A stretch of DNA of 28,990 nucleotides, from the IMG/VR virus record IMGVR_UViG_3300010885_079891, positions 1 to 28,990 of that record. One strand, written 5' to 3'. Positions 1-24,318 of the stretch are shown here, one piece after another. Both the position numbers and the translations under genes were made by a program. Under the pieces are notes generated by a model, which had not been told where the DNA came from, did not search any database, and worked only from the letters and a program-made list of their open reading frames with translations. Source of the DNA: a virus. Each line of letters starts with the position of its first letter. Position 1 is the first letter of the stretch.

Positions 1-2
1 AA

Positions 3-4575: not shown

Positions 4576-5100
4576 CCCATCGCCGTCCCGAAAGCCGACA
4601 AGGTCGGGCGCTGCTCCAAGTTCAGCCGCGCCCTGTTCGACCGCGTCCTCACGGCGATCCGTGACGGCGCGCCGTCCCTGAACGCCATCGAGACGCAAGG
4701 CATCGACCAATCCACGTTCTACCGGCACTTGCAGCGCCAGCCCGACCTTGTGCCGCTGCTCCAAGCCGCGCAGCTCGAACGCGACCGCGTGCGGAACGCG
4801 TCACGCATAGAGGAGGCCGAGCAGGAGTTGAAGCGGCGTGGCATCGACGGTTGGACGGAACCCGTTTTCGACGCGAAGGGCCAGATGTGCGGAGAGCGCC
4901 GCCGCTACTCCGACGCGTGTCTGATTTTCTTCCTCAAGGCGCATAAGCCCGATCTTTACCGCGACCAGCCCACCACCGTCGTCGCCACCCAGGTCAATAT
5001 CACGCCTGAGAAGGAAAAGGACATCATGCGCGAATGGCGTTCCCGCCTTGGTGCCTGCGAGCCTCCGGCCACCCCGGCACCGGTGCAACCCGCGCCATGA
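4573..5100 (+). CDS. terS: Terminase small subunit
   Basis: A 175-residue protein placed directly before the large terminase and overlapping it by four bases (ATGA). The first 70 residues resemble the HTH-containing small terminases: FSRALFDRVLTAIRDGAP, then IETQGIDQSTFYRHLQRQPD, a helix-turn-helix for DNA recognition, followed by a charged helix (QLERDRVRNASRIEEAEQEL) suited to oligomerisation. The middle region (YSDACLIFFLKAHKPDLYRD) is the usual linker segment in this family. It should bind the packaging site and load the large subunit. No Shine-Dalgarno is obvious, but the TTGACAC motif ends at its ATG. The short Pro-rich tail fits a subunit-contacting peptide. Confidence 0.85.
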   Translation: MPIAVPKADKVGRCSKFSRALFDRVLTAIRDGAPSLNAIETQGIDQSTFYRHLQRQPDLVPLLQAAQLERDRVRNASRIEEAEQELKRRGIDGWTEPVFDAKGQMCGERRRYSDACLIFFLKAHKPDLYRDQPTTVVATQVNITPEKEKDIMREWRSRLGACEPPATPAPVQPAP

Positions 5101-6494: not shown

Positions 6495-6512
6495 CACGGA
6501 ACCCACGGCATG
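6491..6512 (+). promoter_or_regulatory. TGACAC-N12-ATG motif, copy 2 (portal)
   Basis: TGACAC begins at the large terminase stop codon and is followed, after a spacer ending in ACGGC, by the portal ATG. The distance to the start equals that in the copies at 4554 and 8132. The core outside TGACAC and CGGC differs, so this is the weakest member. Confidence 0.4.
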
Positions 6513-8135
6513 AGTGATTCACCGTCTCCCGCCAAACTAGCCGCGCCCGTCATTCGCCCCTCCGCTCGCGACTTCGAGCCGCAGCTTTTTGGACGCTGCC
6601 TTTCGCCCGATGCCGTCGGCGCATTGCTCGACGCCGGAGCCCGTGGCGACCTCGCCGCGCAGAGCGATCTTTTCAACCTGATGGAGGACACTTGGCCGCG
6701 CCTCCGCGCCAATCTCCAGAAGATCAAGAACGCCATCCGCAAGCTGCCCTTGAACGTGCAGCCCTTCACCCCGAAGAACGGAAAACCATCCGCGTCCGCA
6801 CAGGAAAAAGCCGCCTTCGTCGAATCCGCGCTCCACCTCCAACGCGGCTACGTGGACACCACGCGCGCCCCGCTCGGCTCCGGCGTTTACGAACTCATGG
6901 ACGCCGTCGCCCGTGGCCTCTCCGTCGTGGAGATCGACTGGGCCACCGATAGCACCGGCTACGTTGTCCCGGTCGGCTTTCGCCGCGTCCCGTCCCGTTA
7001 CCTCGGCATCGCCACCGACGGCACACTAGCACTCCGCCTCGATCCCGCCGCGCTCTCCACGCTCACGCCCTTCGCCAAACACCCCGGCAAATTCCTGACC
7101 GGCATTTTCCAATCCAAGTCCGGCGCACTCGGCGAGGCCGCGCAACTCCGCGCCCTCGCTCCGCTTTGGCTCGGTCACATGCTCGGTTGGGAATGGCTCG
7201 TTCAGAAGGCCGAACTTTTCGGCACGCCCTTGCGCTGGGCCAACTACCCGACGACCGCCACTCAGGCCGAAATCGACGCAATCACCGCCGCGCTGCGCAA
7301 CATGGGCACCGCCTCATGGGGTGCGTTTCCGCAGGGCACCAACCTGCAAATCCTGCAAGGCACCACGCCAGGCGTGTCCGGCCCCAACGACCCGAGCGAA
7401 CGGCTCATGGGAATCGCCGACCGCGCGTGCGACATCATGCTTCTCGGCCAGAACCTTTCCGTTGAACACAACGGCCAAGGCAGCCGCGCCGCCAGCGAGG
7501 TTCACCGCGAGGTCGAACTCGACCTCTACGAAACCTACGCTGAGTTCATCGTCGCGATCATCAACGACCAGCTCATCCCCCAATTGATCGCGCTCAACTG
7601 GGGCAGCGCCGAGGAAATCCCCTTTGTCGAAGTCGAGATCCCGCGCCCAGGTCGCGAGCAGGACATGGCCGCCCGCGACAAAACCCTCTTCGTCGAAATG
7701 GGTCTGCCGGTGTCGCTCCAATACCTCTACGAACGCCACAAAGTTCCGACACCCGACGCTGGCGAAGAACTCTTCAAACCCACCAAACCCGTCGCCCAGG
7801 GCGTGCCGCCGGAGCCTACACCCGACCCGGCCAAGGCCAAAGCCTGCGCGTGTGGTTGCGGCTCTCCCATCGACGCCACCAGCGAATCCTCTGCCGAACT
7901 AGGAGCCCGCCAAGCCGCCGCACAGGCCGCGTTCCCGCAGCAGGTAGCCGAGGCCAACGCCAACGACGAATACCTCGTTTGGGATGCGACGCTCGACAAC
8001 CGCACCACGCCCCTTTGCCAAGGCCGCCACGGTCGCCGCTGGGGTGACGGTTGGTTTTCGCCGCCGCCCGCGCACTACAACTGCCGCAGTGCTTTGATCC
8101 GCGTGCCCAAGGCCAGCTACCAGTCTCCCGATTGA
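6510..8135 (+). CDS. Portal protein, Mu gp29-like, fused to MuF-type domain
   Basis: A 541-residue portal of the DUF935/Mu gp29 type, forming the dodecameric DNA gate of the capsid. Residues about 60-440 carry the portal features: MDAVARGLSVVEIDW, PLRWANYP, a TTPGVSGPNDPSERLMGIAD block and NGQGSRAASEVHREVELD. A linker near 445 contains the odd CACGCG cluster. The last 45 residues (WDATLDNRTTPLCQGRHG, then PPPAHYNCRSAL) match the C-terminal motif of MuF/SPP1 gp7 minor head proteins, normally a separate gene. So portal and a shortened head-morphogenesis domain are joined in one chain. It sits between terminase and protease as expected. The portal call is firm; the role of the fused tail is inferred. 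Confidence 0.9.
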   Translation: MSDSPSPAKLAAPVIRPSARDFEPQLFGRCLSPDAVGALLDAGARGDLAAQSDLFNLMEDTWPRLRANLQKIKNAIRKLPLNVQPFTPKNGKPSASAQEKAAFVESALHLQRGYVDTTRAPLGSGVYELMDAVARGLSVVEIDWATDSTGYVVPVGFRRVPSRYLGIATDGTLALRLDPAALSTLTPFAKHPGKFLTGIFQSKSGALGEAAQLRALAPLWLGHMLGWEWLVQKAELFGTPLRWANYPTTATQAEIDAITAALRNMGTASWGAFPQGTNLQILQGTTPGVSGPNDPSERLMGIADRACDIMLLGQNLSVEHNGQGSRAASEVHREVELDLYETYAEFIVAIINDQLIPQLIALNWGSAEEIPFVEVEIPRPGREQDMAARDKTLFVEMGLPVSLQYLYERHKVPTPDAGEELFKPTKPVAQGVPPEPTPDPAKAKACACGCGSPIDATSESSAELGARQAAAQAAFPQQVAEANANDEYLVWDATLDNRTTPLCQGRHGRRWGDGWFSPPPAHYNCRSALIRVPKASYQSPD

Positions 8136-8153
8136 CACCCCGCCAGCGGCATG
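8132..8153 (+). promoter_or_regulatory. TTGACAC-N12-ATG motif, copy 3 (protease)
   Basis: TTGACACCCCGC then CAGCGGC and ATG; the TGA is also the portal stop codon. The 12-base core is identical to copy 1, nearly 3.6 kb upstream, and so is the spacing to the start. Confidence 0.5.
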
Positions 8154-9140
8154 ACCCAGCCGCTCCACGCCGCATTCTCCAACGCCCTCGCCGACGGCTC
8201 CGCGCTCCCGGCCGACATCCAATACATGCCGCCCGGTCGGCATCGCATCCGCGCCTCCCAGGGCGGCAAACCCGTGTCGGTTGAGGTCGCCGTCAGCGCC
8301 AGCACCGCCGCCGTGCTCCAAACCTTCCTCGCGGCGAAAATGACCGCCGCCGCCGAGGGCCGCGAGGATCGCCCCTTCTTCGATTTTAACCACGAAGACC
8401 GCGAGGCCTCCGCCTGGCCCACCGAGTTCTACTGGGCCGGTGACGATCCGCAGACCGGCGGCGTGCGCGCTCGCATCGAATGGTCGGACGCCGGCAAACG
8501 CGCCGTCGAGGGCCGCACCTTCCGCCGCTTTTCCCCGACCTTCCATCTCGACGCCTCCGGCCACGTCACCGGCTCCGAAATCAACATGGGCGGCCTCGTC
8601 AATCGCGCCGCCTTCAAGCGCATCGCGCCCCTGTTCGCCGCCGCCCCCGTTGACACCGCGCACGAGCAACCGCTCATGCAAACTCTCATCTCCACGCTCC
8701 GTTCGCTCTCGCTGGTCGAGGCGTCCGCCACCGAAGAGGCCGACCTCGTTTCGCAGGTCTCGCGCTCCGTCTCCGCCCTCAAGTCTCAGGTCTCCGACCT
8801 TCAGGCCTCGCTCGCCACTCAGGCCCGCCAGCGCGCCGAGTCCCTGGTTGATGCCGCCGTCCACGCCGGCCGACTCCCCGCCAAGGACACCGACGCACGC
8901 GGCTTCTGGGTCGATGCGCTCATCCGCGACGAAGCGAAGGCCGTGAAAGCGCTCGACGCCCTCGCGGTCAATCCGGTGCTCGCGCGACTCACTCCCGGCG
9001 GCGACCCCGCCGCCGACCCGTCCCACCTCATCACCCGGCAGGAGCAAAAGCTCGCCGCCGTCCGTGCCGCCAACCCCGGCGCGGATTTCCCCAGCATCTA
9101 CGCGAAAGCCAAGGCCGAGAGCCCCGAGCTGTTCCGCTGA
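8151..9140 (+). CDS. Prohead protease/scaffold, Mu gpI-like
   Basis: A 329-residue protein of the Mu-like prophage I protein family, which cleaves itself and the scaffold during head maturation. The N-terminal protease half contains the conserved FFDFNHEDREASAW (about 76-90), then GVRARIEWSDAGKRAVEG and FRRFSPTFHLD, and GGLVNRAAFKRIAPL, all hallmark blocks. From about residue 180 the chain changes to Ala/Ser/Gln-rich helical sequence with heptad-like spacing (VSRSVSALKSQVSDLQASL), fitting an internal scaffold as in Mu, where protease and scaffold share a reading frame. The C-terminus (SIYAKAKAESPELF) is also typical of the family. It is followed by the decoration and major capsid genes in the expected order. 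Confidence 0.88.
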   Translation: MTQPLHAAFSNALADGSALPADIQYMPPGRHRIRASQGGKPVSVEVAVSASTAAVLQTFLAAKMTAAAEGREDRPFFDFNHEDREASAWPTEFYWAGDDPQTGGVRARIEWSDAGKRAVEGRTFRRFSPTFHLDASGHVTGSEINMGGLVNRAAFKRIAPLFAAAPVDTAHEQPLMQTLISTLRSLSLVEASATEEADLVSQVSRSVSALKSQVSDLQASLATQARQRAESLVDAAVHAGRLPAKDTDARGFWVDALIRDEAKAVKALDALAVNPVLARLTPGGDPAADPSHLITRQEQKLAAVRAANPGADFPSIYAKAKAESPELFR

Positions 9141-9178
9141 ACCCGCCCCGCATCACCCACTTTTAACGCCCTCTTCCC

Positions 9179-9574
9179 ATGAAGACTTCTCTCGCCCGCA
9201 CCAACGCCATTCTCCCCTTCGAGGCCGCCGCCGACCTCACCGGCCACGTCGGCCGCTTCGTCATTCTCACCGCTGGCAAGGTCGCCCTTGTCAGCTCCGC
9301 CGCACAAAAACCCTTTGGCGTCCTCCTCACCGACGGCAAGGCTGGTGAAATCGTCACCGTCGCCGTCGGCGCGGGCGGTCTCGCCGGAGTGATCCGCGTG
9401 AAGCTCGCCGCCTCCGTCGGCTGGCCTGGCACCGACCTTCAACTCACCTCTGATGGCCGCGTTCAGACTGATGCCGGCTCCGGTGCCCGTATCGTCGTCG
9501 CCCAGGCCCTCGAATCCGGAGCCGTCGATGAACTCATCGAGGCCGTCCTCTTCCGTCCCGTAACGCTCACGTGA
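9179..9574 (+). CDS. Capsid decoration protein (DUF2190-like)
   Basis: A 131-residue protein between the protease and the major capsid gene, the usual place for a head-stabilising cement protein. The sequence is Gly/Val/Ala-rich with predicted beta strands, and blocks such as GRFVILTAGKVALVSSAAQ, PFGVLLTDGKAGEIVTVAVG and GARIVVAQALESG are what I expect of DUF2190-type proteins, a small beta-barrel family. It would bind the outside of expanded capsids. The assignment rests on context plus this pattern. A second function in head assembly cannot be excluded. Confidence 0.7.
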   Translation: MKTSLARTNAILPFEAAADLTGHVGRFVILTAGKVALVSSAAQKPFGVLLTDGKAGEIVTVAVGAGGLAGVIRVKLAASVGWPGTDLQLTSDGRVQTDAGSGARIVVAQALESGAVDELIEAVLFRPVTLT

Positions 9575-9620
9575 TCGTTTTCACCACGCCCAGCCAAATC
9601 GCCCTCCTTCCATTCCCGCC

Positions 9621-10523
9621 ATGTCTTCTTCCAAATACAACGTAACGCTGACCAACTACGCGCGCGGCCTCGCCCAGGACATCTCAGCCTCGCTCGCCAC
9701 CTTCCTCGCGCCGGAGGTCGTCGTTGCCGCCGCCACCGGCCAATACAAGAGCTTCGACGACAAGAACACCTTTCAGGTCATCGACACCTCCCGCGCCGTC
9801 GGCGGCCCCGCCAAGCGCCTTGAGTTCGCCGCCAGCGATCCCACCTACAACTGCCTCCCGCAGGCCCTCGAAATCGCCATAGACGACCACGAGCGCGACG
9901 AGGCCGGTCAGAGCGATCCTCTCCGTTTGGAGGAGGCCAAAACCCAGACCCTCGTCTCGTCCGCCATCACCTCCCACGAGGCCAAGGTCTTCGCCGCGCT
10001 CACCGCCCTCGCCGCAGCGACCAACATCACTCTCGCGAGCGAAGACCCTATCGTGAAGCTCGACGAGCAGATCGAGGCCCTCGCCACCGACACCGGGCGC
10101 ATGCCCAATCGCATGGTCATCGGCCTGCCCCTCTGGAACAAACTTCGCAACAACTCCAAAATCCTCGCCCGCTTCCCCGGCGCGGCCTCAGTCGGCGTGA
10201 CCATGTCGCAGTTCGCTTCGCTTCTCCTCAACCCGAGCATCGACATCCGTGTCGGCATTCTCGCCAAGGACACCGCCAAGCTCGGCACGGCCAAGGCCAA
10301 CGTGAACATCATCGGCCAGCAATTGGTGATCTTCCACGCCAGCCAGAGCCCCACGCTCTACGATCCCAGCTTCATGAAAACCTTCCGCCTCCGTCGCGGC
10401 GGCGTGGACGTGGTTCGCATGTATCGCGAAGACTCCGCCCGCTCCGACATCCTCGCCGTCGATTGGTCGGAGGACATCCGCGTCACCAGCTCCGTCTGCG
10501 CCCGCAAGGTCACCGGCAGCTAA
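9621..10523 (+). CDS. Major capsid protein
   Basis: A 300-residue protein in the canonical position after protease and decoration protein. It starts with an N-arm-like region (YARGLAQDISASLATFLAPE), followed by alternating strands and helices with SFDDKNTFQVIDTSRAVGGP, YNCLPQALEIAIDDHERDEA and MPNRMVIGLPLWNKLRNN, which resemble the P- and A-domain segments of HK97-fold capsids in Mu-like and related phages. The C-terminus (DILAVDWSEDIRVTSSVCAR) is the typical closing strand. Length is within the family range and there is no internal break. A strong terminator lies about 20 bases after the stop, so head-gene transcription probably drops here. The fold assignment is from pattern and context. 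Confidence 0.85.
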   Translation: MSSSKYNVTLTNYARGLAQDISASLATFLAPEVVVAAATGQYKSFDDKNTFQVIDTSRAVGGPAKRLEFAASDPTYNCLPQALEIAIDDHERDEAGQSDPLRLEEAKTQTLVSSAITSHEAKVFAALTALAAATNITLASEDPIVKLDEQIEALATDTGRMPNRMVIGLPLWNKLRNNSKILARFPGAASVGVTMSQFASLLLNPSIDIRVGILAKDTAKLGTAKANVNIIGQQLVIFHASQSPTLYDPSFMKTFRLRRGGVDVVRMYREDSARSDILAVDWSEDIRVTSSVCARKVTGS

Positions 10524-10542
10524 TCCCAAAACACGGGCACTC

Positions 10543-10576
10543 AAGGGCGGCCGGTCTCACGACCGCCGCCCTTTTT
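10543..10576 (+). terminator. Rho-independent terminator after capsid gene
   Basis: AAGGGCGGCCGGTC, loop TCAC, GACCGCCGCCC and five T. The GC stem has a single bulged C and starts about 20 bases after the capsid stop codon. Confidence 0.9.
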
Positions 10577-10596
10577 CATGCCCACCTTCTACCACC

Positions 10597-10791
10597 ATGC
10601 TCTCCACAATCCTCTCCGTCCTCCGAGACCCCGTGCCCTACCGGGGCGGTCTCGGCATCTTCGCCATCGTCACCCTCGAACGCCTCAACGCCTTCGTCGG
10701 ACTCCTGGTCGGCATCGCCACCCTCGTTTACCTCTGCCTTCGCATACGCCGCGAATACCTCAACCGCCACCGCCCGCCGTCCGGCGAATAA
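10597..10791 (+). CDS. Small membrane protein, holin-like
   Basis: A 64-residue protein with two hydrophobic stretches: GLGIFAIVTLERLNAFVGLL and VGIATLVYLCLRIRR, the second followed by a basic cytoplasmic-looking end (RREYLNRHR). Size, membrane segments and place after the head genes fit a holin or a small inner-membrane protein of phage elements. No endolysin gene is visible near it, so a lysis role is only one option. The start at 10,597 is preceded by CACC with no clear Shine-Dalgarno, as for most genes here. It lies between two terminators. Confidence 0.6.
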   Translation: MLSTILSVLRDPVPYRGGLGIFAIVTLERLNAFVGLLVGIATLVYLCLRIRREYLNRHRPPSGE

Positions 10792-10807
10792 CGGACTCAC
10801 GGCTCCA

Positions 10808-10830
10808 TTGACACCCACCCGCTGCGTATG
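10808..10830 (+). promoter_or_regulatory. TTGACAC-N13-ATG motif, copy 4
   Basis: TTGACACCC followed by ACCCGCTGCGT and ATG. The first nine bases match copies 1 and 3, and the spacing to the start codon is one base longer. Here the TGA is not the stop codon of a recognised gene, so stop-codon usage alone does not explain the motif. Confidence 0.45.
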
Positions 10831-11022
10831 AACGCAAAAACCATTCGCATCCTGTCCTTCCTCGGTAAGACCGCCGGTCTTGTCCTCACCGTCGCCGGCC
10901 CCTTCTCCGGCACGCCCATCGGCCTCACGGTCTTCGCCGTTTCGTCCTTCCTCAAAGACGCCGTGAACCGCTTCGGCGACATCGCCGACGACGGCAAACC
11001 CAACAATTCCTTCAAAACCTAA
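10828..11022 (+). CDS. Small hydrophobic protein of unknown function
   Basis: A 64-residue protein with a hydrophobic core: ILSFLGKTAGLVLTVAGPF and GLTVFAVSSFLKDAVNRFGD, enough for one or two membrane helices. The C-terminus is polar. I do not recognise the family. It follows the holin-like gene by 36 bases and ends before a strong hairpin terminator, so the two small membrane proteins may act together, for example as a two-component holin or a superinfection-exclusion pair. This is inference from position and hydrophobicity only. Confidence 0.5.
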   Translation: MNAKTIRILSFLGKTAGLVLTVAGPFSGTPIGLTVFAVSSFLKDAVNRFGDIADDGKPNNSFKT

Positions 11023-11048
11023 AAAACCGCCACGTTCCGTAACTGCCT

Positions 11049-11080
11049 AGCCCCGACCCATTAAATGGCCGGGGCTTTTT
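11049..11080 (+). terminator. Rho-independent terminator ending phage module
   Basis: AGCCCCG and CGGGGCT close a stem around CCATT-A-AATGG, followed by TTTTT. It separates the phage module from the defence cluster. Confidence 0.9.
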
Positions 11081-11118
11081 CTTGGCTATTATGCGCCCGA
11101 CTGCATTTGTTTTACACA

Positions 11119-11811
11119 ATGCCGTCTGACCTATCCGGCGCCGGTCACCGCGAACGCTTACGCTCCCGCTACTTCCAAGCCGGGCTTAGTGCTTTTGCGC
11201 CTCACGAAATCATCGAGCTTGCCCTCACCCTTGCTATCCCACGGGGGGACGTAAAGCCCTTGGCTAAAACGCTCTTGGTTCAATTCGGAAGTCTCCGTGG
11301 CATAATGCACGCCAGCTACGACGATCTGCTGGCGGTTTCGGGTGTCGGCCCCACCACCGTCTTTGCGCTCCACTTCATTCGAGACCTGATTCCGCAATAC
11401 CTTGCCGAGTCCCTTTCCCGCAACGCTACGCCCAATTCTCCAGAGGGTCTTCTCAAGGGTTTGTCTGATCTGTGGCGCGCCCGCCTGGGGCACGAAAAGA
11501 AAGAGGTCTTCGAGGTCGCCTTACTTTCCCCATCGTTCGCGCTTCTTCGCGTGGTCACCCATTCGCGAGGCACCGCTGATCAAACGGCGGTCTTTCCCTC
11601 CGAGGTCATGCGTGCAGCCCTCAAAGCCGACGCCTACGCCTTGGCCTTCGCCCACAACCATCCCAGCGGCGACCCATCTCCCTCGGACGCAGACAAACTT
11701 CTCACCCGGCAGTTGGTTTTGGCGGCGACCGCCTCACGGCTTCAGGTTGTTGACCATCTGATCATTACGCCGGACACCTTCTTTAGTTTCCGCAAGGAGG
11801 GCCTACTCTGA
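11119..11811 (+). CDS. radC: RadC-family JAMM/MPN protein
   Basis: A 230-residue RadC/YeeS-type protein. The start at 11,119 gives the usual N-terminus (GHRERLRSRYFQAG); an earlier in-frame ATG at 11,065 lies inside the terminator and is unlikely. The N-terminal domain ends in a helix-hairpin-helix (VSGVGPTTVFALHFIRDL), a DNA-binding motif. The JAMM metalloprotease-like domain carries a Glu in KKEVFEVALLS and the metal site HNHPSGDPSPSDAD with His179, His181 and Asp192. The biochemical role of RadC is not established, but such genes are common in mobile elements and defence islands. The stop overlaps the helicase start by one base (TGATG), arguing for joint function with it. Confidence 0.9.
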   Translation: MPSDLSGAGHRERLRSRYFQAGLSAFAPHEIIELALTLAIPRGDVKPLAKTLLVQFGSLRGIMHASYDDLLAVSGVGPTTVFALHFIRDLIPQYLAESLSRNATPNSPEGLLKGLSDLWRARLGHEKKEVFEVALLSPSFALLRVVTHSRGTADQTAVFPSEVMRAALKADAYALAFAHNHPSGDPSPSDADKLLTRQLVLAATASRLQVVDHLIITPDTFFSFRKEGLL

Positions 11812-14672
11812 TGATCGCGGGCCCGATTCTCTCCCACTTCCCTTCTCTGAATCCGGAGCAGCGTCGTATTGTCGAAACCACCGAGGGCCCCGTTTTGATC
11901 ATAGCGGGCCCCGGCTCCGGCAAAACATTCAGCCTCGTTCTTCGCACCCTAAACCTCCTTTCCCTCGGCAAGGCGAAGCCCTCCGAAATAGTCGTCTGCA
12001 CCTTTACCGAAAAGGCCGCGCTTGAACTGCGTGATCGCCTCAATGCGGGTGCGGCCAAGATCGGCTACACCGAAGACCTCACCGAGCTTCGTGTCGGCAC
12101 GATTCACGGTATTTGCCACGACATCCTTAACCGCCACCGCCATCACACCAAGCTGGGCAACAGCTTCCAGATTCTGGACGGGCTCACCCAGCAACTCTTC
12201 CTTTTTGAGCAGTTCGATACGGTCTTCGGGCCCCCGGTTAACGACCTCTTTTTAGGGAAATGGTCCACCAAGTGGACCGCGATTGAAGGCGCTATTTCTT
12301 TCTTCAACAAAATCACCGAGGAGCAGATCGACGCGACCCGCCTTCAATCTTCCCCGGATGCTTTTCTCTCCACGCTTGGCGGTGCCTACCTTCGCTACCG
12401 CCAAGCCCAATATGACCAGAACCGCATCGACTTCGCTGTTATCCAGTCCCTCGCGTTCGATGTCCTGTCATCCGATGCCATTGGCTCAAGAGTGTGTGCA
12501 GGCGTCCGTTACCTGATGGTCGATGAGTATCAGGACACCAACTACATTCAGGAGCGGCTCTTGCTCAAAATGGCCTCGGCCCATCTCAACGTCTGCGTGG
12601 TAGGTGACGAGGATCAGAGTCTCTATCGTTTTCGCGGTGCCACCGTGCGAAACATTCTTGAGTTCCCCAGGCACTTCCCGTCGGCCACCCAGATTCCGCT
12701 CACCACCAACTACCGCTCCCACAAGGCCATCATCTCCGCCTATGATCGCTGGATGGCTTCCGCAGACTGGTCTGGGCCCGGCATCCAGCGGTTTCGCTTC
12801 GACAAATCCATCCTCCCAAACTCCCCCGAGAGTCACCCCGACTATCCGGCGGTTTTCAGTATCTGGACTCAAGACCCTCGCGACGAAGCCGAGCGCTTCG
12901 CGTCCTTGGTCAAATTCCTCAAAGACAGCTCGATCATCGAGGACTACTCCCAGGTGGCTCTGCTTTTGCGGAGCGTTCAAACCCAACACAGCGGTCGGTT
13001 TACCGACGCCCTAAAGGCCCTCGGAATTCCCGCCTACTGTCCACGCGCTCGCGGCTTTTTTGAGAGCGAAGAAATCCAATGGATGATGGCCTGTTACGCG
13101 CTGATTTTCGGCTGGCATGGCGCCGGCCGAGGAGAGGTGAAGGGCCCGGCCTTAACCGAATTTGCAACCTACATAGATCGCGCCTTTGTCTCGCTCGCAG
13201 GGGCTGCGGGTGGCGGCGACTCACCGCTTTCCAAATTATTGCGCCAGTGGGTCGGACTCATCCAGGGGCTCAACATCGGCGAGTCCCTCGACCTTCGCAT
13301 CGCGGATTTCCTTTATCGGCTTCTCGCGGTGGAACCATTTGCGTCGGTCATGAAGGAAGAGAACCGCGCCCGTAGCCTCGCGATTCTCACCCAGCTCCTG
13401 AATTCCTTCCAGAGCTACTACCACTACACGATTATCACCCATAAGAACCGGGAGTGGATTCGGCGTCACCTTTTCAACAGCTTCTTTCGTTTGCTTCACG
13501 AAAGCGGCCTCAATGATTTCGAGGATCCCGATCAACCGCTTCCCAAGGGCCACGTCCAGATCCTGACCATCCACCAGTCCAAGGGCCTCGAATTTCCCGT
13601 GGTTGTCGTCGGCAGTCTCGATGCCAACATCAGCACCGGTAAGCAGGTGGATCAACTGCTGGGCCCCTTCTGCCAACGCCCTGTCCTCGAACCCATGAAT
13701 CGCATCACCGGTTTCGACCGGATGCGTCTTCACTACGTCGCCTTCTCGCGCGCCGCCAAGCTCCTCGTGCTCACCTGCGGCACGCAGCCGAAAGATCACT
13801 TTCGCGAAATTTGGGACGGCCTTCCCCAGTGGCCCCACATCCAGCGCGATCTGCTCATAGCCCAGCGTTTCGAGGGCAAAGACCGCCACCCCGTCAAAAA
13901 ACGTTTCTCCTTCACCGGCGACCTCCGCGTTTACGAGACCTGTCCGCGCCAGTATCAATACTACCGTTACTTTGATTTCACGCCGTCCCGCTCGGCGGTG
14001 ATTTTCTTCGGCCTCTTGGTTCACCAGTCCATTGAGGAAATTCATCGTCTCGTCCTGGACGGCCTCCTCGACCAGATTGACGACGCTCGCGTCCTCGACC
14101 TTTTCGAAAAAACCTACCGCTTCCTTTGCCTGAGCGACGTTCGCCCGACCGGCCCCGCCGCCAAGGAAAACGCCCTCAAACAAGTCCTGGACTACTTCCA
14201 CCAGAATCGGGACGCCATGCAGCGCGTCCGCGAGACTGAGGTGGATGTCTCCCTGGAGAAAGACGGCTACATCCTGACCGGCAAAGTCGATCTCCTCATG
14301 GGCTCCGACGGCAAGCTGGAGCTTCTCGACTTCAAAACCTCCGAACGTCCCGCTCCCGACGACCCCATTCTCGACGTTTACGAGAAGCAGCTCTGCACCT
14401 ACGCGCACATCCTGGAACAACGTTACGGCAAACGCCCCGAACGTCTACTCCTATACTGGACGGCGGAGGAGAAGAAGTCCGATGCCCTCATGGAGTTCGA
14501 CTACCATCCGCAACACGTGGAGGCCGCCGGTAAATCCTTCGACGAAGTCGTGGCCAAAATCCAAGACCGCGACTTCAACGTCGTCCGCCCTCCCGGCCGC
14601 AAGGTGTGCAAAGAGTGCGACCTGAAAGCCGTCTGCGCCCGAGACGGCCTCATTAAACCTTTCCCATCCTAA
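11811..14672 (+). CDS. UvrD-like SF1 helicase with Cas4/AddB-like nuclease
   Basis: A 953-residue helicase-nuclease. SF1A motifs occur in order: Q-motif LNPEQRRIV (13-21), Walker A AGPGSGKT (32-39), CTFTEKAALELRDRL, Walker B DEYQDT (238-243), VVGDEDQSLYRFRG (about 263-276), TTNYRSH (about 298-304), LTIHQSKGLEFPVVVVG (585-601) and YVAFSRA (about 642-648). The C-terminal PD-(D/E)XK domain has GKVDLL (Asp827) and LLDFKTS (Asp840, Lys842). Four cysteines, C711 in ETCPRQYQYY and C933, C936, C942 in CKECDLKAVC, match the iron-sulfur pattern of AddB and Cas4. It probably unwinds and cuts DNA ends. It overlaps radC by one base and precedes the GHKL gene by eight. Confidence 0.92.
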   Translation: MIAGPILSHFPSLNPEQRRIVETTEGPVLIIAGPGSGKTFSLVLRTLNLLSLGKAKPSEIVVCTFTEKAALELRDRLNAGAAKIGYTEDLTELRVGTIHGICHDILNRHRHHTKLGNSFQILDGLTQQLFLFEQFDTVFGPPVNDLFLGKWSTKWTAIEGAISFFNKITEEQIDATRLQSSPDAFLSTLGGAYLRYRQAQYDQNRIDFAVIQSLAFDVLSSDAIGSRVCAGVRYLMVDEYQDTNYIQERLLLKMASAHLNVCVVGDEDQSLYRFRGATVRNILEFPRHFPSATQIPLTTNYRSHKAIISAYDRWMASADWSGPGIQRFRFDKSILPNSPESHPDYPAVFSIWTQDPRDEAERFASLVKFLKDSSIIEDYSQVALLLRSVQTQHSGRFTDALKALGIPAYCPRARGFFESEEIQWMMACYALIFGWHGAGRGEVKGPALTEFATYIDRAFVSLAGAAGGGDSPLSKLLRQWVGLIQGLNIGESLDLRIADFLYRLLAVEPFASVMKEENRARSLAILTQLLNSFQSYYHYTIITHKNREWIRRHLFNSFFRLLHESGLNDFEDPDQPLPKGHVQILTIHQSKGLEFPVVVVGSLDANISTGKQVDQLLGPFCQRPVLEPMNRITGFDRMRLHYVAFSRAAKLLVLTCGTQPKDHFREIWDGLPQWPHIQRDLLIAQRFEGKDRHPVKKRFSFTGDLRVYETCPRQYQYYRYFDFTPSRSAVIFFGLLVHQSIEEIHRLVLDGLLDQIDDARVLDLFEKTYRFLCLSDVRPTGPAAKENALKQVLDYFHQNRDAMQRVRETEVDVSLEKDGYILTGKVDLLMGSDGKLELLDFKTSERPAPDDPILDVYEKQLCTYAHILEQRYGKRPERLLLYWTAEEKKSDALMEFDYHPQHVEAAGKSFDEVVAKIQDRDFNVVRPPGRKVCKECDLKAVCARDGLIKPFPS

Positions 14673-14680
14673 GCCTCTCC

Positions 14681-17600
14681 ATGCCGACCGATTACGAAAA
14701 AGTGCGTTCAGACAACCTTGTAAGCTACGGGACGGCTATCACCCGCTACGGCCCGATGCTGCTCGCGCAACGCTACGACAACCGTTCGCACTTCATTTTC
14801 GAGCTACTCCAAAACGCCGAGGATGCACTTCGCCGTCAGGTTCCGTATCCGCTCAACCGCGAAGTCAGCTTCCGCCTCGATTCCGATGCACTGGTTTTCT
14901 CCCACTTTGGAGCCACCTTCACACCTGAGGATGTCCGTTTTATCTGCGGTATCGGCGAAAGCACCGAAACGCACTCTAAACGCCTGACCGACATCGGTCG
15001 CTTTGGCATCGGCTTCAAATCCGTTTACGCTTTCACCGACCGCCCTGAAATCCACTCCGGCGACGAGCACTTCGCCATCGAGGATTACGTTCACCCCCGT
15101 GGCATCGCCCCGATAGTCACCCAGCCCGGCCAAACCGTATTCCGCTTCCCTTTTCGTGTCGGCGACGGAACCGCCCACTCGGAAGTCCACAACGGTCTAT
15201 CCACTCTTGAACTCAGCACCCTCATTTTCCTGCGCGAGATCGAGCAGGTGAGTTGGCATTCCGGAAAATCACAGGGCAACTACCTCCGAGACACTCAGCC
15301 CGAGCCAGAGGCACGCGATGGGCGCAGGGTAACCATCGTCAGCGAATCCGGCGCAGATGCCACCTACCTCGTTTTTGAGCGGCCGGTTTTTAGGCCCGGC
15401 CAACTCGACAAACCTGCCGGGCGTGTAGAAGTCGCCTATCACCTACTCAAGGATCATATCGAGCCCGTGGAAAGCGCGAAGCTTTCCGTTTTCTTCCCGA
15501 CCATAGTTCACACCCAGTTCGGTGCGATCCTCCAAGGCCCCTTCCGCACCACGCCGAGTCGCGACAACATTCCCCGCGACGACGCTTGGAACAAACACTT
15601 GGTCGCAGAGCTGGCCCAGCTCGTGCCCGATTCGATCCGTCAGCTAAAAGCCATCGGTAAACTCGACGCTCAAGCGCTCCATGCGCTTCCCATCCACAAG
15701 GAGCGTTTCGCCTCCGAGCCGCTTTTCTTACCGGTCTTCAACGCGGTTCGCTCGGCATTCGCCGCAGAGCCATTGATTCCCTGTCACGACGGCACTCACC
15801 GCCCCGCTCCCCAAGTCCGCTTAGGCCGCACCGTAGAGATTCGAACATTGTTTTCCCCTGAGCAGCTAGGGGAGCTGGATTCGACGCCCACGCCCCTGGC
15901 TTGGGTGATCGACGGCGTGACCCGCGACCGAACCCAGCAACTTCATAAATTTCTTAACTTGGAGTTAGGCATCCTCGACTTCGACGCGGCTGCCGTCCTC
16001 TCACGCCTCAAGGCCTCGTTTCTCCAATCCCAGCCCACTGATTGGCTCGCCCGTTTCTACGCATTCCTCGTCGAACAAGAAGGCGCTTTGCGCACCACCA
16101 ATCTTCTCTCCAAGCCTATCATCCGGCTTTCCGACGGCTCTCACGTCCCCCCTTTCGACAACAACAAGCCTCTCGCCTACCTTTCCGCTTCAGGCACCGA
16201 CTACCCGTCTGTTGATCCCGCTTTATGCGCCCACGAACCCGCACTCCGTTTTCTCAAGCGCATCGGCCTCACCGTTCCCGACGTCGTTGACGACGTCATC
16301 GACCACCTGCTTCCACGCTTCTCCAGCGCTTCCTATGCTCCTTCGGGCCCCGAATACAGCGAAGCCATCGCGCGCATACACACCGCTTCAGAAACGAACC
16401 TCTCCGATAAACGAAAACGACTCCTCGAAGCTCTACGAAACACGCCCTTCGTGTATGCGACCGACGCCACCGGTGCCCGCCGCCGTATTCGCCCTTCGGC
16501 GGCTTACATTCACACCGACCGCCTCGCTGGACTCTTCGCAGGTATCAAGGACATCTGGCTCATCGAGAAAGACACAGGAACCATCCCTAACGAAACTCAC
16601 CGCAAGCTGCTTCGCGCCTGCGGCGGCAACGAATACCTTCTTCCTATACCTGCCCCCTCTCGTTTCACAAATGCCGATCTTGCCGAGATGCGCGCGGCAG
16701 CGGGCTACTCCCCTATAACAGAGGAACTCAGCATCACTGATTATACCCTTCGCGACCTCGACAAGGTTCTTTCTCACCTATCAAACTTAGATCCCCACGA
16801 ACGCCAACACCGCGCCCTTCTTCTCTGGGATGCCCTCGCCGAAGTTGAAGCCAATCGCGGCAAGTCCTATTTCAGCGGAACGTATATCTGGTTTCATTAT
16901 TCACGGCGGTCTTGCGACTTCCCCGCCGCATTCGTCGAGCAACTCCGCAAGTCTCGGTGGGTGCCCAAGCCCGACGGCACCCTGGGCCTTCCTGCCGAGG
17001 TCGTGTTCGAGACACTCACGCCTCCCTGGCCTGCCCATCCCTTCCTCCTGTCGCTTCTTCCCTTCAAGCCACGCGCAGAGGTCGAACTCGCAAGATTGGC
17101 CGGCATTGATCCCGCCATTCTCGACCTCATCAAATCCCTCGGTATCACCAGCAGCAAACAGCTCTCCGATCTCCTCCATCTTCCTGCTCCCGAGCAACCC
17201 GCGCCAGCCCCCGAAGACCCACCCGCCACGCCCGCCTCTGCCATCGAAGCCCTGCTCGGCGGCGCACCCGATCCCACCGCACCGGTCGGCGGCTCCACCG
17301 GCGAATACGCTCCTGGCGCCGGCCGCCCCGGTGGCCCTGGCACCGGCGGCAGTGCGCCTAAGAACGTCTCCGGCACCGGCTCGCACTCGGGTTCAGGATC
17401 AGGCGGTGGCGGCGGCTCCGCTGGCGGGCATAGCGGCGGGGGTGGCGCAGGCCCCTCGCACGCCAACCCCGGCTCCTATCGTCCTGCCTTCCACACCTAC
17501 GTCGCCACCTCCCCCGACGACGAGCCGGCCGATCCCGAAGGCCTCGAACAGGCCGCCCGCATGCAGATCGAGCAGGACGCCATCGCCTACATCCTCACCC

Positions 17601-17926
17601 AAGAGACCAGCCTCCAAACCACCCCGCCCGGCAACCCCGGCTTCGACCTCTTCGAGGGTGAAGACATCGCCAGCCCCACCCGCTACGTCGAGGTGAAGTC
17701 CCGCAGCGGCTCGTGGTCGGGCCCCGTAGCCCTTTCTCGCGAGCAGTTCCTCAAAGCCCAGGTCGAGGGCGACCGCTACTGGCTCTACGTCGTCGAGCAC
17801 ACCCGCACACCCGCAGCCACCCGGCTCCACCGCATCCAGAACCCTGCCGGTAAGTCCCGCCACTTCACCTTCGACCCTGGCTGGTCTGAGCTCGCCGAAC
17901 CCGGCCCGCAGAATACCGGCATTTAA
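14681..17926 (+). CDS. GHKL (sacsin/Hsp90-like) ATPase with C-terminal DUF3883
   Basis: A 1081-residue protein. The N-terminus is an Hsp90/sacsin-like ATPase: FELLQNAEDA (Asn45, Asp48), SHFGATFTPEDV (about 74-85) and GRFGIGFKSVYAF (106-118). About residues 200-850 form a long region without motifs I know. Residues about 858-927 are a Gly/Ser/Pro-rich linker. The last 115 residues match DUF3883: NPGFDLFEGEDIA then RYVEVKSRSGSW (Glu1004, Lys1006), the PD-(D/E)XK-like core. This ATPase-plus-nuclease layout is recurrent in defence islands but poorly understood. At residue 76, Phe stands where I would expect Asn or Asp. It follows the helicase by eight bases; 42 bases separate it from the toxin-antitoxin pair. 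Confidence 0.88.
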   Translation: MPTDYEKVRSDNLVSYGTAITRYGPMLLAQRYDNRSHFIFELLQNAEDALRRQVPYPLNREVSFRLDSDALVFSHFGATFTPEDVRFICGIGESTETHSKRLTDIGRFGIGFKSVYAFTDRPEIHSGDEHFAIEDYVHPRGIAPIVTQPGQTVFRFPFRVGDGTAHSEVHNGLSTLELSTLIFLREIEQVSWHSGKSQGNYLRDTQPEPEARDGRRVTIVSESGADATYLVFERPVFRPGQLDKPAGRVEVAYHLLKDHIEPVESAKLSVFFPTIVHTQFGAILQGPFRTTPSRDNIPRDDAWNKHLVAELAQLVPDSIRQLKAIGKLDAQALHALPIHKERFASEPLFLPVFNAVRSAFAAEPLIPCHDGTHRPAPQVRLGRTVEIRTLFSPEQLGELDSTPTPLAWVIDGVTRDRTQQLHKFLNLELGILDFDAAAVLSRLKASFLQSQPTDWLARFYAFLVEQEGALRTTNLLSKPIIRLSDGSHVPPFDNNKPLAYLSASGTDYPSVDPALCAHEPALRFLKRIGLTVPDVVDDVIDHLLPRFSSASYAPSGPEYSEAIARIHTASETNLSDKRKRLLEALRNTPFVYATDATGARRRIRPSAAYIHTDRLAGLFAGIKDIWLIEKDTGTIPNETHRKLLRACGGNEYLLPIPAPSRFTNADLAEMRAAAGYSPITEELSITDYTLRDLDKVLSHLSNLDPHERQHRALLLWDALAEVEANRGKSYFSGTYIWFHYSRRSCDFPAAFVEQLRKSRWVPKPDGTLGLPAEVVFETLTPPWPAHPFLLSLLPFKPRAEVELARLAGIDPAILDLIKSLGITSSKQLSDLLHLPAPEQPAPAPEDPPATPASAIEALLGGAPDPTAPVGGSTGEYAPGAGRPGGPGTGGSAPKNVSGTGSHSGSGSGGGGGSAGGHSGGGGAGPSHANPGSYRPAFHTYVATSPDDEPADPEGLEQAARMQIEQDAIAYILTQETSLQTTPPGNPGFDLFEGEDIASPTRYVEVKSRSGSWSGPVALSREQFLKAQVEGDRYWLYVVEHTRTPAATRLHRIQNPAGKSRHFTFDPGWSELAEPGPQNTGI

Positions 17927-17929
17927 TTA

Positions 17930-17940
17930 ACCCTAAGGGT
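17930..17940. promoter_or_regulatory. Palindrome upstream of toxin gene, candidate operator
   Basis: ACCCTAAGGGT, a perfect palindrome around a central A, lies in the 42-base gap before the toxin start, followed by an AT-rich TAAATAG. HigA-type antitoxins usually bind such palindromes over their own promoter, so it is a candidate autoregulatory operator. Confidence 0.5.
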
Positions 17941-17968
17941 AAATAGTTCTTGCTACCACCCGACCCAC

Positions 17969-18304
17969 ATGGAAATCTCTTACTCCAACAAGAAACTCGC
18001 CAAGCTGCTCAACAGCCAAAAGGAGGTCTTGAGGACTTACGGGCACGATAACGGTAACCGCATCCTTGCGCGACTTACCCAGATCGCCGCCGCCGAGACC
18101 CTCGCCGACCTCGCCAAGCTGCCTCAGACCCGAGTCCATGAACACACCAACAACAACGACGAACAAATCTCGGTGGATGTGAAACATCCCTACCGGCTGA
18201 TGCTGGCCGCCGATCATCCTAAGACCCCGCGCAAACCCGACGGCGGGCTCGATTGGGCCAAGATCACCCGAGTAAGTATCCTGAGAATAGACGACCCCCA
18301 CTGA
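17969..18304 (+). CDS. higB: HigB-like toxin (RelE/ParE superfamily)
   Basis: A 111-residue protein of the HigB-like family in the RelE/ParE fold, usually ribosome-dependent mRNA interferases. Typical segments are visible: MEISYSNKKLAKLLNSQKEV at the start, GNRILARLTQIAAAETLADL, and the closing strand SVDVKHPYRLMLAADHP, which is diagnostic for this group. Such genes are sometimes misnamed killer suppression protein. The gene precedes its antitoxin, the inverted order typical of HigBA, with two bases between them. It is embedded in the defence cluster, so it may stabilise the island or act as an abortive-infection effector. Confidence 0.85.
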   Translation: MEISYSNKKLAKLLNSQKEVLRTYGHDNGNRILARLTQIAAAETLADLAKLPQTRVHEHTNNNDEQISVDVKHPYRLMLAADHPKTPRKPDGGLDWAKITRVSILRIDDPH

Positions 18305-18306
18305 CC

Positions 18307-19404
18307 ATGAGCACCAAACCCACCTACAAGCCCGACTTCGCCATCCACCCGGGCGAGACCCTGCTCGAAACACTCGACGCCCTCGGCATGACCCAGAAGG
18401 AACTCGCCGAACGCACCGGCCGCCCCCTCAAGACCATCAACGAGATCGTCCAAGGTAAGGCCGCCATCATCGCCGACACCGCCCTGCAGCTTGAGCGCGT
18501 CCTCGGCGTGCCCGCCACCTTCTGGAACAACGCCCAGCGCAACTACGAGGCCCAGCTCGCGCGCAACGCCGAGACCGAGGCCCTGCAACGCGACGTAGCC
18601 TGGTTGCAGGACTTCCCTCTGGCCCAGCTTCGCAAGCTCGGCTGGATTCCCAAGCTGTCCGATCCGGTCGAGCAGCTTCGCGCCGTCCTCGGCTTCTTCG
18701 GCGTCGCTGGAGTGGAGGAGTGGCGGCAGCTCTGGCAGCAGCCCGATGTCGCCTTTCGCAAATCCCGCGCCTTCGATGCCCGCCCCCAATCCGTCGCCGC
18801 CTGGCTCCGTGCCGGCGAACGCGAGGCCCAGCAGGTCGCCACCCAGCCCTTCGATAAGGAGAAGTTCACCGCCGCGCTCCACGAGATCCGTCGCCACACC
18901 ACTACCGGGCCCGAAACCTTCGAGCCCCTTATGAAGCGCCTTTGCGCCGAGGCAGGGGTCGCCTTGGTCTTCGTTCCCGAGGTCACGGGCACCCGCGCCT
19001 TTGGCGCTACCCGCTGGCTCACCCCGGAAAAGGCGATTCTTCAACTCAGCCTTCGCGGCAAGACCGACAATTTTCTTTGGTTCACCTTCTTCCACGAGGC
19101 CGCCCACATCCTCAAGCACGGCAAGCGCGATGTCTTTATCGAGTCGAGCGAGGGAACCGCTGATGCCGATACCCAGCGCAAGGAAGCCGAGGCGAACGCC
19201 TTCGCCGCCGATTTTCTAATCCCGCGCCCGGCCTACCGCGAACTCCTCACGCTCAAGCCGTTCACGATAGCCAAGGTCGAGCACTTTGCAGGACAACACG
19301 GTATCGCCCCCGGCATCGTTGTCGGCAGATTGCAGCACGATAAAATCATCCCCTTCACTCACCACAACGGCCTTAAGCGCCGCTTCCAATTCAATACTAA
19401 TTAA
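18307..19404 (+). CDS. higA: HigA-type HTH antitoxin fused to ImmA/IrrE peptidase
   Basis: A 365-residue fusion. Residues about 15-75 form a HigA-type helix-turn-helix (LDALGMTQKELAERTGRPL, TINEIVQGKAAI, LERVLGVPATFWNN). After a helical linker, the C-terminal half is an ImmA/IrrE-like zinc peptidase with HEAAHILKH (His263, Glu264, His267) and the downstream EAEANAFAADFLIP carrying the likely third ligand. Start 18,307 is two bases after the toxin stop; upstream in-frame sequence only shadows the toxin. ImmA proteins cleave partner repressors, so this antitoxin may be conditionally inactivated, or control its neighbours. Eight bases separate it from the methyltransferase gene. Fusions of this type are known; the proteolytic target is unknown. 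Confidence 0.88.
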   Translation: MSTKPTYKPDFAIHPGETLLETLDALGMTQKELAERTGRPLKTINEIVQGKAAIIADTALQLERVLGVPATFWNNAQRNYEAQLARNAETEALQRDVAWLQDFPLAQLRKLGWIPKLSDPVEQLRAVLGFFGVAGVEEWRQLWQQPDVAFRKSRAFDARPQSVAAWLRAGEREAQQVATQPFDKEKFTAALHEIRRHTTTGPETFEPLMKRLCAEAGVALVFVPEVTGTRAFGATRWLTPEKAILQLSLRGKTDNFLWFTFFHEAAHILKHGKRDVFIESSEGTADADTQRKEAEANAFAADFLIPRPAYRELLTLKPFTIAKVEHFAGQHGIAPGIVVGRLQHDKIIPFTHHNGLKRRFQFNTN

Positions 19405-19412
19405 AATCCCTC

Positions 19413-21299
19413 ATGGCTAAAATTGATGTCACCAAAACCGAGCTGGTCTGGCCCGGAAAATATAATGAGGATGGATCGCTGCGCGAGGTGCCTCGCGTAA
19501 ACCTTCCTTTTCAAGTCATTGAGCGGGTGAATGAAAGCCGCGCGACACGCGAAGCTCAAAAAAACGCTAATCTAACTCTGTTCGATTTTTATTCCGGCAA
19601 GGAAGGGGTAACATTTGAAGATGGATGGAGAAATAAGCTCATATGGGGCGACAACATTCTTGTAATGAGTTCCTTGCTAGAGAAATTTGCCGGTAAGGTT
19701 GATCTAATATATATCGACCCACCTTTTGCTACCGGCGCCGATTTTTCATTCAAAACGAGCATTGGGGACGGAGAGGATGAGATCCATAAAGAACAGAGTA
19801 TTATTGAGGAAAAGGCATATCGCGACACTTGGGGTAAAGGCCCCGGGAGCTTCATGCAGATGATTTACGACCGAATCAGTCTAATCAAAATGCTGATGAG
19901 CCCCACGGCCTCCCTGTATGTTCATTGTGATTGGCGTATGTCAGGTGTGATAAGATTAATTCTCGATGAAATCATGTCAGGAAACCATGTGAATGAAATT
20001 ATATGGTGCTATAGTATTGGGGGTAAAGGCACGGATCGTTTTGGACGGAAACATGATACTATCTTTTTATATTCAAAGGGCGAAGACCGCGTATTCAATG
20101 CTAAAGACCCACACGTTCTAATGCCCCGGAAACCCAACAGCCACATGAGGGCAAAGGTCGATGCCGATGGTAGAGAGTATCAAGAAAAGACAGATAAAAA
20201 GTCAGGGAAAGTCTATAGGTATTACGTAGATCAGGGGGCGATTCCCACAGATTACTGGACTGATATCGAGCAGTTAAATTGGGAAGCCGCTGAAAGGGTA
20301 GGATACGATACTCAAAAACCCGAGCGTTTACTAAGTAGAGTAATTGCCGCTTCCACAAATGAAGGGGGCTTGGTTTGTGATTTTTTCTGTGGATCGGGGA
20401 CAACGCTTGCAGTTGCAGAAAAGCTTGGGCGACGATGGATTGGTTGTGATTTAGGAAGATGGGCGATTCATACCACACGTAAACGCCTGCTTGAAATCGA
20501 AGGATGTAAACCCTTCGAGGTTCTCAATCTTGGGAAATACGAACGTCAATATTGGCAGGGATCCACACTGGGAAGTGGTCAAAGCAACGGGCAACTTCTC
20601 TATGAATATCTAGCATTTGTCCTGAAACTATATCAGTCACAGCCTCTTTCCGGCATGTCTCATATACATGGCAAAAAAGGCGCGGCGATGGTGCATATTG
20701 GTGCCATTGACTCCCCTGTTACAATTGATGAGGTTTCACTAGCCATAGAAGAATGCGTTAAAACCAAGCAGCCGGAGCTTCACGTTCTGGGATGGGAGTG
20801 GGAGATGGGATTAGCTGGCCCCAATAATGGCGTAAAGAAGGGGAGCCCCATGCACGATGTTGCTAAGCAAAAGGGCATCAAACTACTGCTGCTCCAGATT
20901 CCCCGCGAGGTCATGGAAAAACAAGCGGTTGATAAAGGTCACCTCACTTTCTTCGAACTCGCTTACCTCAACGTGGAAATCAATCAGGCTAAGAACCTCC
21001 ACGTCTCAATTACATTGAAAGACTTTGTAATCCCCAACACCGAACTCATCCCCGAAGAGGTGCGCGAAAAAGTGAAGAAGTGGAGTGACTATATCGACTA
21101 CTGGGCGGTGGATTGGGACTTTCAGAACGACAGTTTTATGCAGGGCTGGGTTACCTACCGCACTCGCAAAGATCGCTCCCTCGCCCTCGCCAGCGACGTT
21201 CATAAATACGAAAAGCCCGGCACTTACCGTGTCCTCGTCAAAGTGGTGGACATCTTTGGTAACGATACCTCTCAAGCCTATACCATCGAGGTAAAGTAA
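19413..21299 (+). CDS. mod: Type III-like adenine methyltransferase (Mod)
   Basis: A 628-residue beta-class N6-adenine methyltransferase. The catalytic motif IV, IDPPF (residues 102-105), precedes the SAM-binding motif DFFCGSGTT (323-331), the order of type III Mod proteins; the target-recognition region should lie between and after them. The C-terminal third (from about 480) includes KDFVIPNTELIPEEVREKVK and a closing beta-rich YRVLVKVVDIFGNDTSQAY. It would modify host DNA and, with the following gene, recognise the target site. Bases about 19,550-20,880 are clearly AT-richer than both flanks, suggesting recombinational replacement of the catalytic and recognition core. Both motifs are intact, so it is probably active. 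Confidence 0.9.
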   Translation: MAKIDVTKTELVWPGKYNEDGSLREVPRVNLPFQVIERVNESRATREAQKNANLTLFDFYSGKEGVTFEDGWRNKLIWGDNILVMSSLLEKFAGKVDLIYIDPPFATGADFSFKTSIGDGEDEIHKEQSIIEEKAYRDTWGKGPGSFMQMIYDRISLIKMLMSPTASLYVHCDWRMSGVIRLILDEIMSGNHVNEIIWCYSIGGKGTDRFGRKHDTIFLYSKGEDRVFNAKDPHVLMPRKPNSHMRAKVDADGREYQEKTDKKSGKVYRYYVDQGAIPTDYWTDIEQLNWEAAERVGYDTQKPERLLSRVIAASTNEGGLVCDFFCGSGTTLAVAEKLGRRWIGCDLGRWAIHTTRKRLLEIEGCKPFEVLNLGKYERQYWQGSTLGSGQSNGQLLYEYLAFVLKLYQSQPLSGMSHIHGKKGAAMVHIGAIDSPVTIDEVSLAIEECVKTKQPELHVLGWEWEMGLAGPNNGVKKGSPMHDVAKQKGIKLLLLQIPREVMEKQAVDKGHLTFFELAYLNVEINQAKNLHVSITLKDFVIPNTELIPEEVREKVKKWSDYIDYWAVDWDFQNDSFMQGWVTYRTRKDRSLALASDVHKYEKPGTYRVLVKVVDIFGNDTSQAYTIEVK

Positions 21300-21317
21300 C
21301 CACTCCCGCTCCTCGCT

Positions 21318-24239: not shown

Positions 24240-24271
24240 GGCTGCCGCCCCCTCGGCTCGTCCGGCAGCCC
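24239..24271 (+). terminator. Stem-loop at Res stop codon
   Basis: GGGCTGCCG and CGGCAGCCC pair over nine bases with a 15-base loop, starting at the last base of the stop codon. There is no T-run, so it may be an attenuator or mRNA-stabilising hairpin rather than a full terminator. Confidence 0.5.
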
Positions 24272-24318
24272 CAAAGTCCAAGACGCCATCCCGATCTGCC
24301 AGTCAAAGCGGCACAACT

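Follow-up and report, generated by a model that had tools for sequence, protein, structure and literature searches.

The window analyzed here, 28,990 bases of the IMG/VR virus record IMGVR_UViG_3300010885_079891 (G000), carries a RadC- and GHKL-containing variant of the association between UvrD-Cas4 helicase-nucleases and type III restriction-modification (R-M) systems (Table 1). With a probability of roughly 0.6, the predicted proteins and their conservation point to an enlarged type III-like R-M system, in which RadC and the helicase-nuclease would be working parts of restriction. A sequence-only reading of the same DNA had proposed that radC, the helicase gene, and the GHKL gene form an undescribed three-gene defense system. 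The proposal that these genes belong together held, also outside this element, as did a very likely role in defense; the proposal of a self-contained system of three genes did not.

Table 1. Features of the window, with coordinates, strand, and the matches or limits on which each assignment is based.
Feature	Coordinates	Strand	Evidence and remarks
Head module: terminase small and large subunits, portal, protease, head protein, major capsid	4573–10523	+	PHROGs matches; upstream of cargo
Defense-cargo block between conserved flanks of virus-like element	11023–26776		Homology limits versus related elements
Intrinsic terminator, end of head-gene operon	11049–11081	+	RNA fold -16.1 kcal/mol, z -3.5, then T run
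radC, HhH + JAB/JAMM metalloprotein, operon-specific clade	11119–11811	+	Pfam RadC 105 bits
UvrD-Cas4: SF1 helicase + PD-(D/E)XK + 4-Cys iron-sulfur motif	11811–14672	+	Pfam UvrD 202, PDDEXK_1 (PF12705) 90, Cas4 23 bits
GHKL (sacsin-type) ATPase, Gly-rich linker, C-terminal NOV_C/DUF3883	14681–17926	+	Sacsin-type (SACS) 58 bits, NOV_C (= DUF3883) 34 bits; optional insert
HigB-like toxin candidate (inserted)	17969–18304	+	Pfam HigB-like 16.5 bits, below cut-off
HigA-type HTH + ImmA/IrrE peptidase (inserted)	18307–19404	+	NCBIfam antidote_HigA 61.5 bits, over cut-off; Peptidase_M78 35 bits
Type III-like Mod, beta-class N6/N4 methylase, 628 aa	19413–21299	+	PADLOC MTase_III 456.6 bits, full length
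Type III-like Res, SF2 helicase + PD...ExK endonuclease, 973 aa	21318–24239	+	ResIII 46 bits
Separate UvrD-type helicase gene, last of cargo, before conserved right flank	24817–26778	+	Weak UvrD/SLFN matches; PADLOC NERD+UvrD 40 bits

The gene layout in the window was as described earlier: radC and the helicase gene overlap by one base (stop TGA and start ATG at 11811), the GHKL gene starts 8 bases after the helicase stop, and a genuine terminator precedes all three. For radC, the ATG at 11119 was the preferred start, the longer reading frame from 11065 starting within the terminator. None of 200 shuffled sequences folded as well as the terminator hairpin, which contains a mismatch and an inner loop and is of a kind missed by a simple terminator scanner. 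Similar GC-rich hairpins were found at the same place in two related contigs (L293 and L296), and the terminator belongs to the end of the phage head operon rather than marking the three genes. The unit itself runs beyond the GHKL gene to position 24239, through an inserted HigBA-like pair and then Mod and Res, with gaps of 8 bases between the HigA-type gene and Mod and of 18 bases between Mod and Res. In L281, the RadC-helicase-GHKL-Mod-Res junctions consist of overlaps of 4 and 1 bases, followed by gaps of 4 and 2 bases. Because these junctions overlap or lie at most 4 bases apart, the five genes of L281 look like one transcription unit, from which the window differs by the HigBA insertion. 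The HigB-like reading frame was absent at this place in L274, L281, and L100. In L275 (4584–15324), a VapBC-like pair lies between Mod and Res and, by eye, an MNT/HEPN-like pair lies beside radC. Toxin-antitoxin modules, VapBC-like in L275 and HigBA in the window, have thus been inserted repeatedly into this operon type.

Relatives were collected by scanning genomes and viral contigs with alignments of the helicase, Res, and Mod, and sampled genomes with a Mod profile; a scan of the viral contigs with the single GHKL sequence yielded no relatives, and the three alignments did better. Loci with 48–61% helicase identity, designated class A, comprised the window, L020, L021, L022, L023, L024, L100, L251, L274, L275, L281, and L282. 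The order RadC-helicase-Mod-Res was found in L020 and L282 and, with Mod and Res separated by VapBC, in L275, while a DUF4062-like reading frame separated RadC-helicase from Mod in L021 and L022, the latter ending within Mod. L100 and L281 showed RadC-helicase-GHKL-Mod-Res, as did L274 as far as its contig extends, so that the three-gene order noted in the window recurs in all three, with a different GHKL subfamily in L100. L023 carried helicase-Mod-Res and L251 helicase-Mod, both without RadC. Res followed Mod in L020, L021, L023, L100, L275, L281, and L282. Loci with RadC-helicase-Mod-Res came from Planctomycetota, Bacteroidota, and Bacillota and from a further viral contig. In L021 (14345–16226), Mod was split into two overlapping reading frames, perhaps through a frameshift or an assembly error.

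Two sets of loci served as controls: 40 loci of the sister helicase clade (class B) and 22 plain Mod-Res loci (class C). RadC stood directly before the helicase in 9 of 12 class A loci versus 0 of 40 class B loci (Fisher p = 6e-8), a count that overstates the number of independent events, given the small number of class A loci and the close kinship of some (L274/L281; L022 and L282 from one genome). Mod and Res were present in 27 of the 40 class B flanks. Class C loci lacked GHKL and any helicase of this type, and a single, unrelated RadC was present among them. Chance adjacency of RadC was dropped as an explanation, both controls speaking against it. Distance matrices of RadC, helicase, Mod, and Res were correlated (r 0.82–0.985; Mantel p 0.0002–0.0022), with r 0.93 for RadC and helicase; this shows joint inheritance and not, by itself, joint function. 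Class A helicases formed one clade in a quick tree (SH-aLRT 99), and the class A grouping was weaker (86) in the Mod tree. Among 392 sampled Planctomycetota, the Mod profile detected 3 with class A, one of them the seed genome G001; one further case came from a class of 154, and none from 398 sampled Pseudomonadota. In Bacteroidota and Bacillota, it matched no genomes beyond the seeds G002 and G003 and the class C-like G786, results that are no measure of class A frequency.

Pfam searches bore out the earlier domain calls, namely a RadC JAB domain, UvrD with a PF12705 four-Cys nuclease, and a sacsin-type ATPase with NOV_C (DUF3883). In alignments of 10 and 6 sequences, the helicase motifs were invariant, as were the nuclease residues H738/E742, D827, and D840-K842 and the four cysteines C711, C933, C936, and C942, the latter in a Cas4/AddB-type arrangement. 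Plasmid searches (tblastn) returned full-length helicase relatives (33–37% identity), with genes for a methylase and a DEAD-box/TnsA-type endonuclease behind them, from Blastomonas, Phaeobacter, Nitrosomonas, Enterococcus, Vibrio, Priestia, and Tunicatimonas; two reading frames intervene in a relative on a Spirosoma plasmid. With GHKL and helicase queries, these plasmid searches showed the R-M neighborhood and no version with RadC. L192 (4325–13695) shows a further UvrD/type III-like arrangement that includes an ImmA-type regulator: a distant UvrD/4-Cys protein is followed by a methylase, Res, HTH, and ImmA/IrrE.

RadC proteins occur across bacteria and have a conserved metal site, with no agreed function and a repair role that is debated in the literature. 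The clade described here, moving and co-diverging with a type III-like R-M enzyme and a helicase-nuclease, places the family in a definite setting and would make phage restriction a phenotype open to selection. Residues H179, H181, and D192, the metal ligands, were invariant, and matches to the HhH region were weak and below cut-off. Nine operon RadCs grouped as one clade (support 97/97) to the exclusion of nine other RadCs. In addition to the operon copy, a diverged RadC is encoded in each of the genomes of L020, L021, and L022. Since RadC is missing from L023, L251, and L024 (the last being a helicase alone, cut by the contig end), it is not indispensable to the operon. RadC has been put forward as an enzyme that processes nucleic acids (PMC5512222), and a 2025 preprint refers to RadC/ArdB modules as antirestriction (PMC12458937). 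From CBASS/Bil-type JAB systems the window differs in that its JAB protein belongs to the RadC family; no match to their partners (E1/E2, CD-NTase, ubiquitin-like) was found for the cargo proteins scanned in Pfam, NCBIfam, and the PADLOC matches listed.

In the GHKL protein, the N-box, GxGxG, and the G-D...EVK signature of DUF3883 were invariant in the window, L274, L281, L104, and L106, and the last of these signatures also in L100. GHKL genes occupied the same slot in L274, L281, and L100, the last with a different subfamily, and were adjacent to the operon in 4 of 12 class A, 3 of 40 class B (there divergently upstream), and 0 of 22 class C loci. GHKL, whose adjacency is weaker than that of RadC, is thus a recurrent but optional insert of two subfamilies. 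In the viral and genomic contigs L033, L104, and L106, a window-type GHKL-DUF3883 gene lies divergently upstream of class B helicase-Mod-Res, so that the partner is kept and its orientation differs. The PADLOC TmtA models (PDLC03964-03972) matched the window protein in part (231 bits), as it is shorter (1081 aa versus the 1302–1655 positions of the best-matching models), whereas the L100 protein in this slot is a full-length TmtA (1429 bits). No paper describing TmtA was found in the literature search. AlphaFold models (mean pLDDT 44 for GHKL, 43 for its DUF3883 end) were too poor for use. In R-M operons, DUF3883 has been described as a new type of restriction-endonuclease domain (PMC3710099).

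Both R-M proteins showed the architecture of type III enzymes. In Mod, a beta-class methylase, DPPF (within 101–105) precedes FCGSG (325–329), the order of motif IV before motif I, and residues 176–300 were variable, with an identity of 0.2–0.4 versus about 0.6–0.8 elsewhere, as would be expected of the target-recognition region. Res combines an SF2 helicase with a C-terminal PD-(D/E)XK endonuclease; its GSGKT, DEAHH, IGRGLR, PD854, and E871-K873 were invariant in five sequences, except for G/A in GSGKT of L023. EcoP15I provided the best PDB match for each protein, the match of the Res profile being weak (22 bits), so that the window Res is only distantly like EcoP15I Res. In L100 (22067–22609), an EVE-domain-like reading frame, a possible modified-base reader, directly follows Res (by eye). 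In L249 (9671–11893), a class A-type Mod (63% identity) follows pentapeptide-like reading frames and is a phage orphan methylase, with no helicase or Res within 10 kb.

The sequence-only reading could match the gene set to no system known to it. Against this, Mod scored 457 bits with the PADLOC type III methylase, Mod and Res were most like EcoP15I, and the helicase family has been published: UvrD-Cas4 proteins of the pfam12705 branch beside type III Mod-Res are predicted defense genes (Hudaiberdiev et al., 2017; PMC5704561). With these, the window shares the helicase-nuclease architecture (SF1 UvrD with a pfam12705 4-Cys nuclease), the Mod and Res neighbors (19413–24239), and the predicted role in defense. 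The main text of that study contains no mention of RadC, GHKL, HSP90, JAB, or DUF3883, and from the common class B UvrD-Cas4 loci the window differs by its class A clade, its RadC, and a different Mod/Res pair. With type III R-M (EcoP15I) it has in common an adjacent beta-class Mod and SF2-helicase/endonuclease Res and the variable region of Mod; classical systems consist of these two genes, whereas this operon type adds RadC, a helicase-nuclease, and often a further insert ahead of Mod. GHKL ATPases have been described in type III-like R-M operons, with a proposed role in DNA looping (Iyer et al., 2008; PMC2292703). Those MORC/paraMORC operons likewise place GHKL beside type III-like SF2 helicases and methylases, but the window GHKL is sacsin-like with DUF3883 and is accompanied by RadC and an SF1 helicase-nuclease; a MORC-type label was dropped.

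Other family labels were also rejected. GHKL-Shedu (VcSduA), in which GHKL plus PD-(D/E)XK is active (PMC12137116), resembles the window protein in that a GHKL ATPase domain precedes a PD-(D/E)XK-type nuclease at the C terminus, but its nuclease end is DUF4263, whereas that of the window is NOV_C/DUF3883, and it is not described in such an R-M operon. A UvrD-family helicase is shared with Gabija; among the PADLOC matches listed for the 8 cargo proteins there was no GajA, and GajB-type matches were to UvrD helicases only, the GajB models (up to 177 bits) covering just the helicase part of the window protein and not its Cas4-type nuclease end. Hallmarks of BREX, DISARM, Druantia, and Zorya (PglZ, DrmA/DrmB, DruE, ZorA) were absent from the 8 cargo proteins in Pfam, NCBIfam, and the PADLOC matches listed. 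Literature queries (TmtA, BPTD_3080, RadC with R-M, DUF3883 with UvrD) returned nothing on this gene set, and no description of the RadC/GHKL-DUF3883 form was found; most subscription papers lay outside the search, so absence is not proven.

The most likely function, judged from the predicted domains, would be restriction followed by processive degradation of unmethylated phage DNA. Mod would methylate one short, lineage-specific site and thereby mark self DNA. On meeting unmethylated phage sites, Mod-Res would engage and Res, by analogy with EcoP15I-type enzymes, would move and cut with ATP. UvrD-Cas4 could then load on the cut or nicked DNA, unwind it, and degrade it in the fashion of RecB/AddAB. 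RadC, with its HhH DNA-binding region and intact JAMM metal site, may be a dedicated subunit that recognizes or trims DNA ends or branched intermediates where the helicase-nuclease works. GHKL-DUF3883 could act as an optional ATP-gated clamp-nuclease regulating or reinforcing the response, and HigBA may have entered the operon as an addiction or back-up module. The locus would in this way suggest an extension of restriction from one cut to degradation of the whole genome. A more specific proposal, in which RadC is a dedicated catalytic, DNA-end- or branch-processing JAMM subunit of an R-M-coupled helicase-nuclease gated by GHKL-DUF3883 and the assembly represents a restriction class of several subunits separate from type III, is put forward tentatively.

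Alternatively, the locus might be an ordinary type III-like R-M system with UvrD-Cas4 as accessory, on which RadC and GHKL hitch-hike without part in restriction. UvrD-Cas4 is indeed known with Mod/Res and without RadC (PMC5704561), no class B locus and not every class A locus has RadC, GHKL is optional, and RadC genes are common in mobile elements. That the operon RadCs nevertheless form a distinct clade, are coupled to the helicase by overlaps, co-diverge with it, and keep their metal ligands makes passive carriage rather unlikely. It appears less probable still that RadC and UvrD-Cas4 constitute a self-repair arm, mending restriction breaks in host or element DNA instead of attacking phage. 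A RecB/AddB-like recombination role has been suggested for UvrD-Cas4 (PMC5704561), and UvrD/PcrA and AddA were among the best PDB matches, but host genomes have a RadC of their own, the operon RadC is not kept in all class A loci, and no recombinase gene is linked.

A stand-alone three-gene system that merely neighbors an R-M system, as first proposed, can claim the recurrence of its gene order in L274, L281, and L100. However, each trio found leads directly into Mod and, on contigs that reach far enough, also into Res; Mod/Res accompany the helicase in the absence of GHKL in L020, L023, L275, and L282; and the sister helicase clade has Mod and Res in 27 of 40 flanks. Such a system was already disfavored and is regarded as very improbable. 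The enlarged type III-like R-M system is the reading preferred here.

The cargo sits in a capsid-encoding element that is seemingly tail-less and appears to exchange defense genes at a single site. Its main genes (11119–26778) are all on the + strand. The block is bounded at 11023–26776, because homology with related elements stops at 11020–11024 (contigs that reach the slot lose homology at or before it) and resumes at 26777–27034, with 84% identity to L315, part of the G1599 element. Capsid proteins at least 91% identical to that of the window over full length were found in 8 viral contigs (L286-L293), and 85–90% identical ones in L294-L296; all of L286-L296 showed DNA homology to the head module. 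At the same slot, L289 carries type I R-M and a GmrSD-type gene, L293 and L295 carry type I R-M, and L296 carries type III R-M and Mrr. The window cargo thus occupies a slot in which close relatives carry other R-M or anti-phage systems.

The G1599 element starts beside tRNA-Glu with a tyrosine integrase. Helicase/primase-like genes and the head module, together with an integrase in relatives, were observed across the element (window 1–11022; L286-L296, L314-L320). No tail gene cluster was seen in the element pieces read, of which part of the reading frames was scanned, and one metallo-hydrolase-like reading frame has a tail-annotated PHROG match. From this gene content, the element may be a capsid-forming satellite that integrates at tRNA-Glu and swaps defense cargo at one site. 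No Rfam families were found in the window. The last cargo gene, encoding a UvrD-type helicase (24817–26778), had no BLAST match in other class A loci; it lies outside the conserved unit and is probably a second, separate defense gene.
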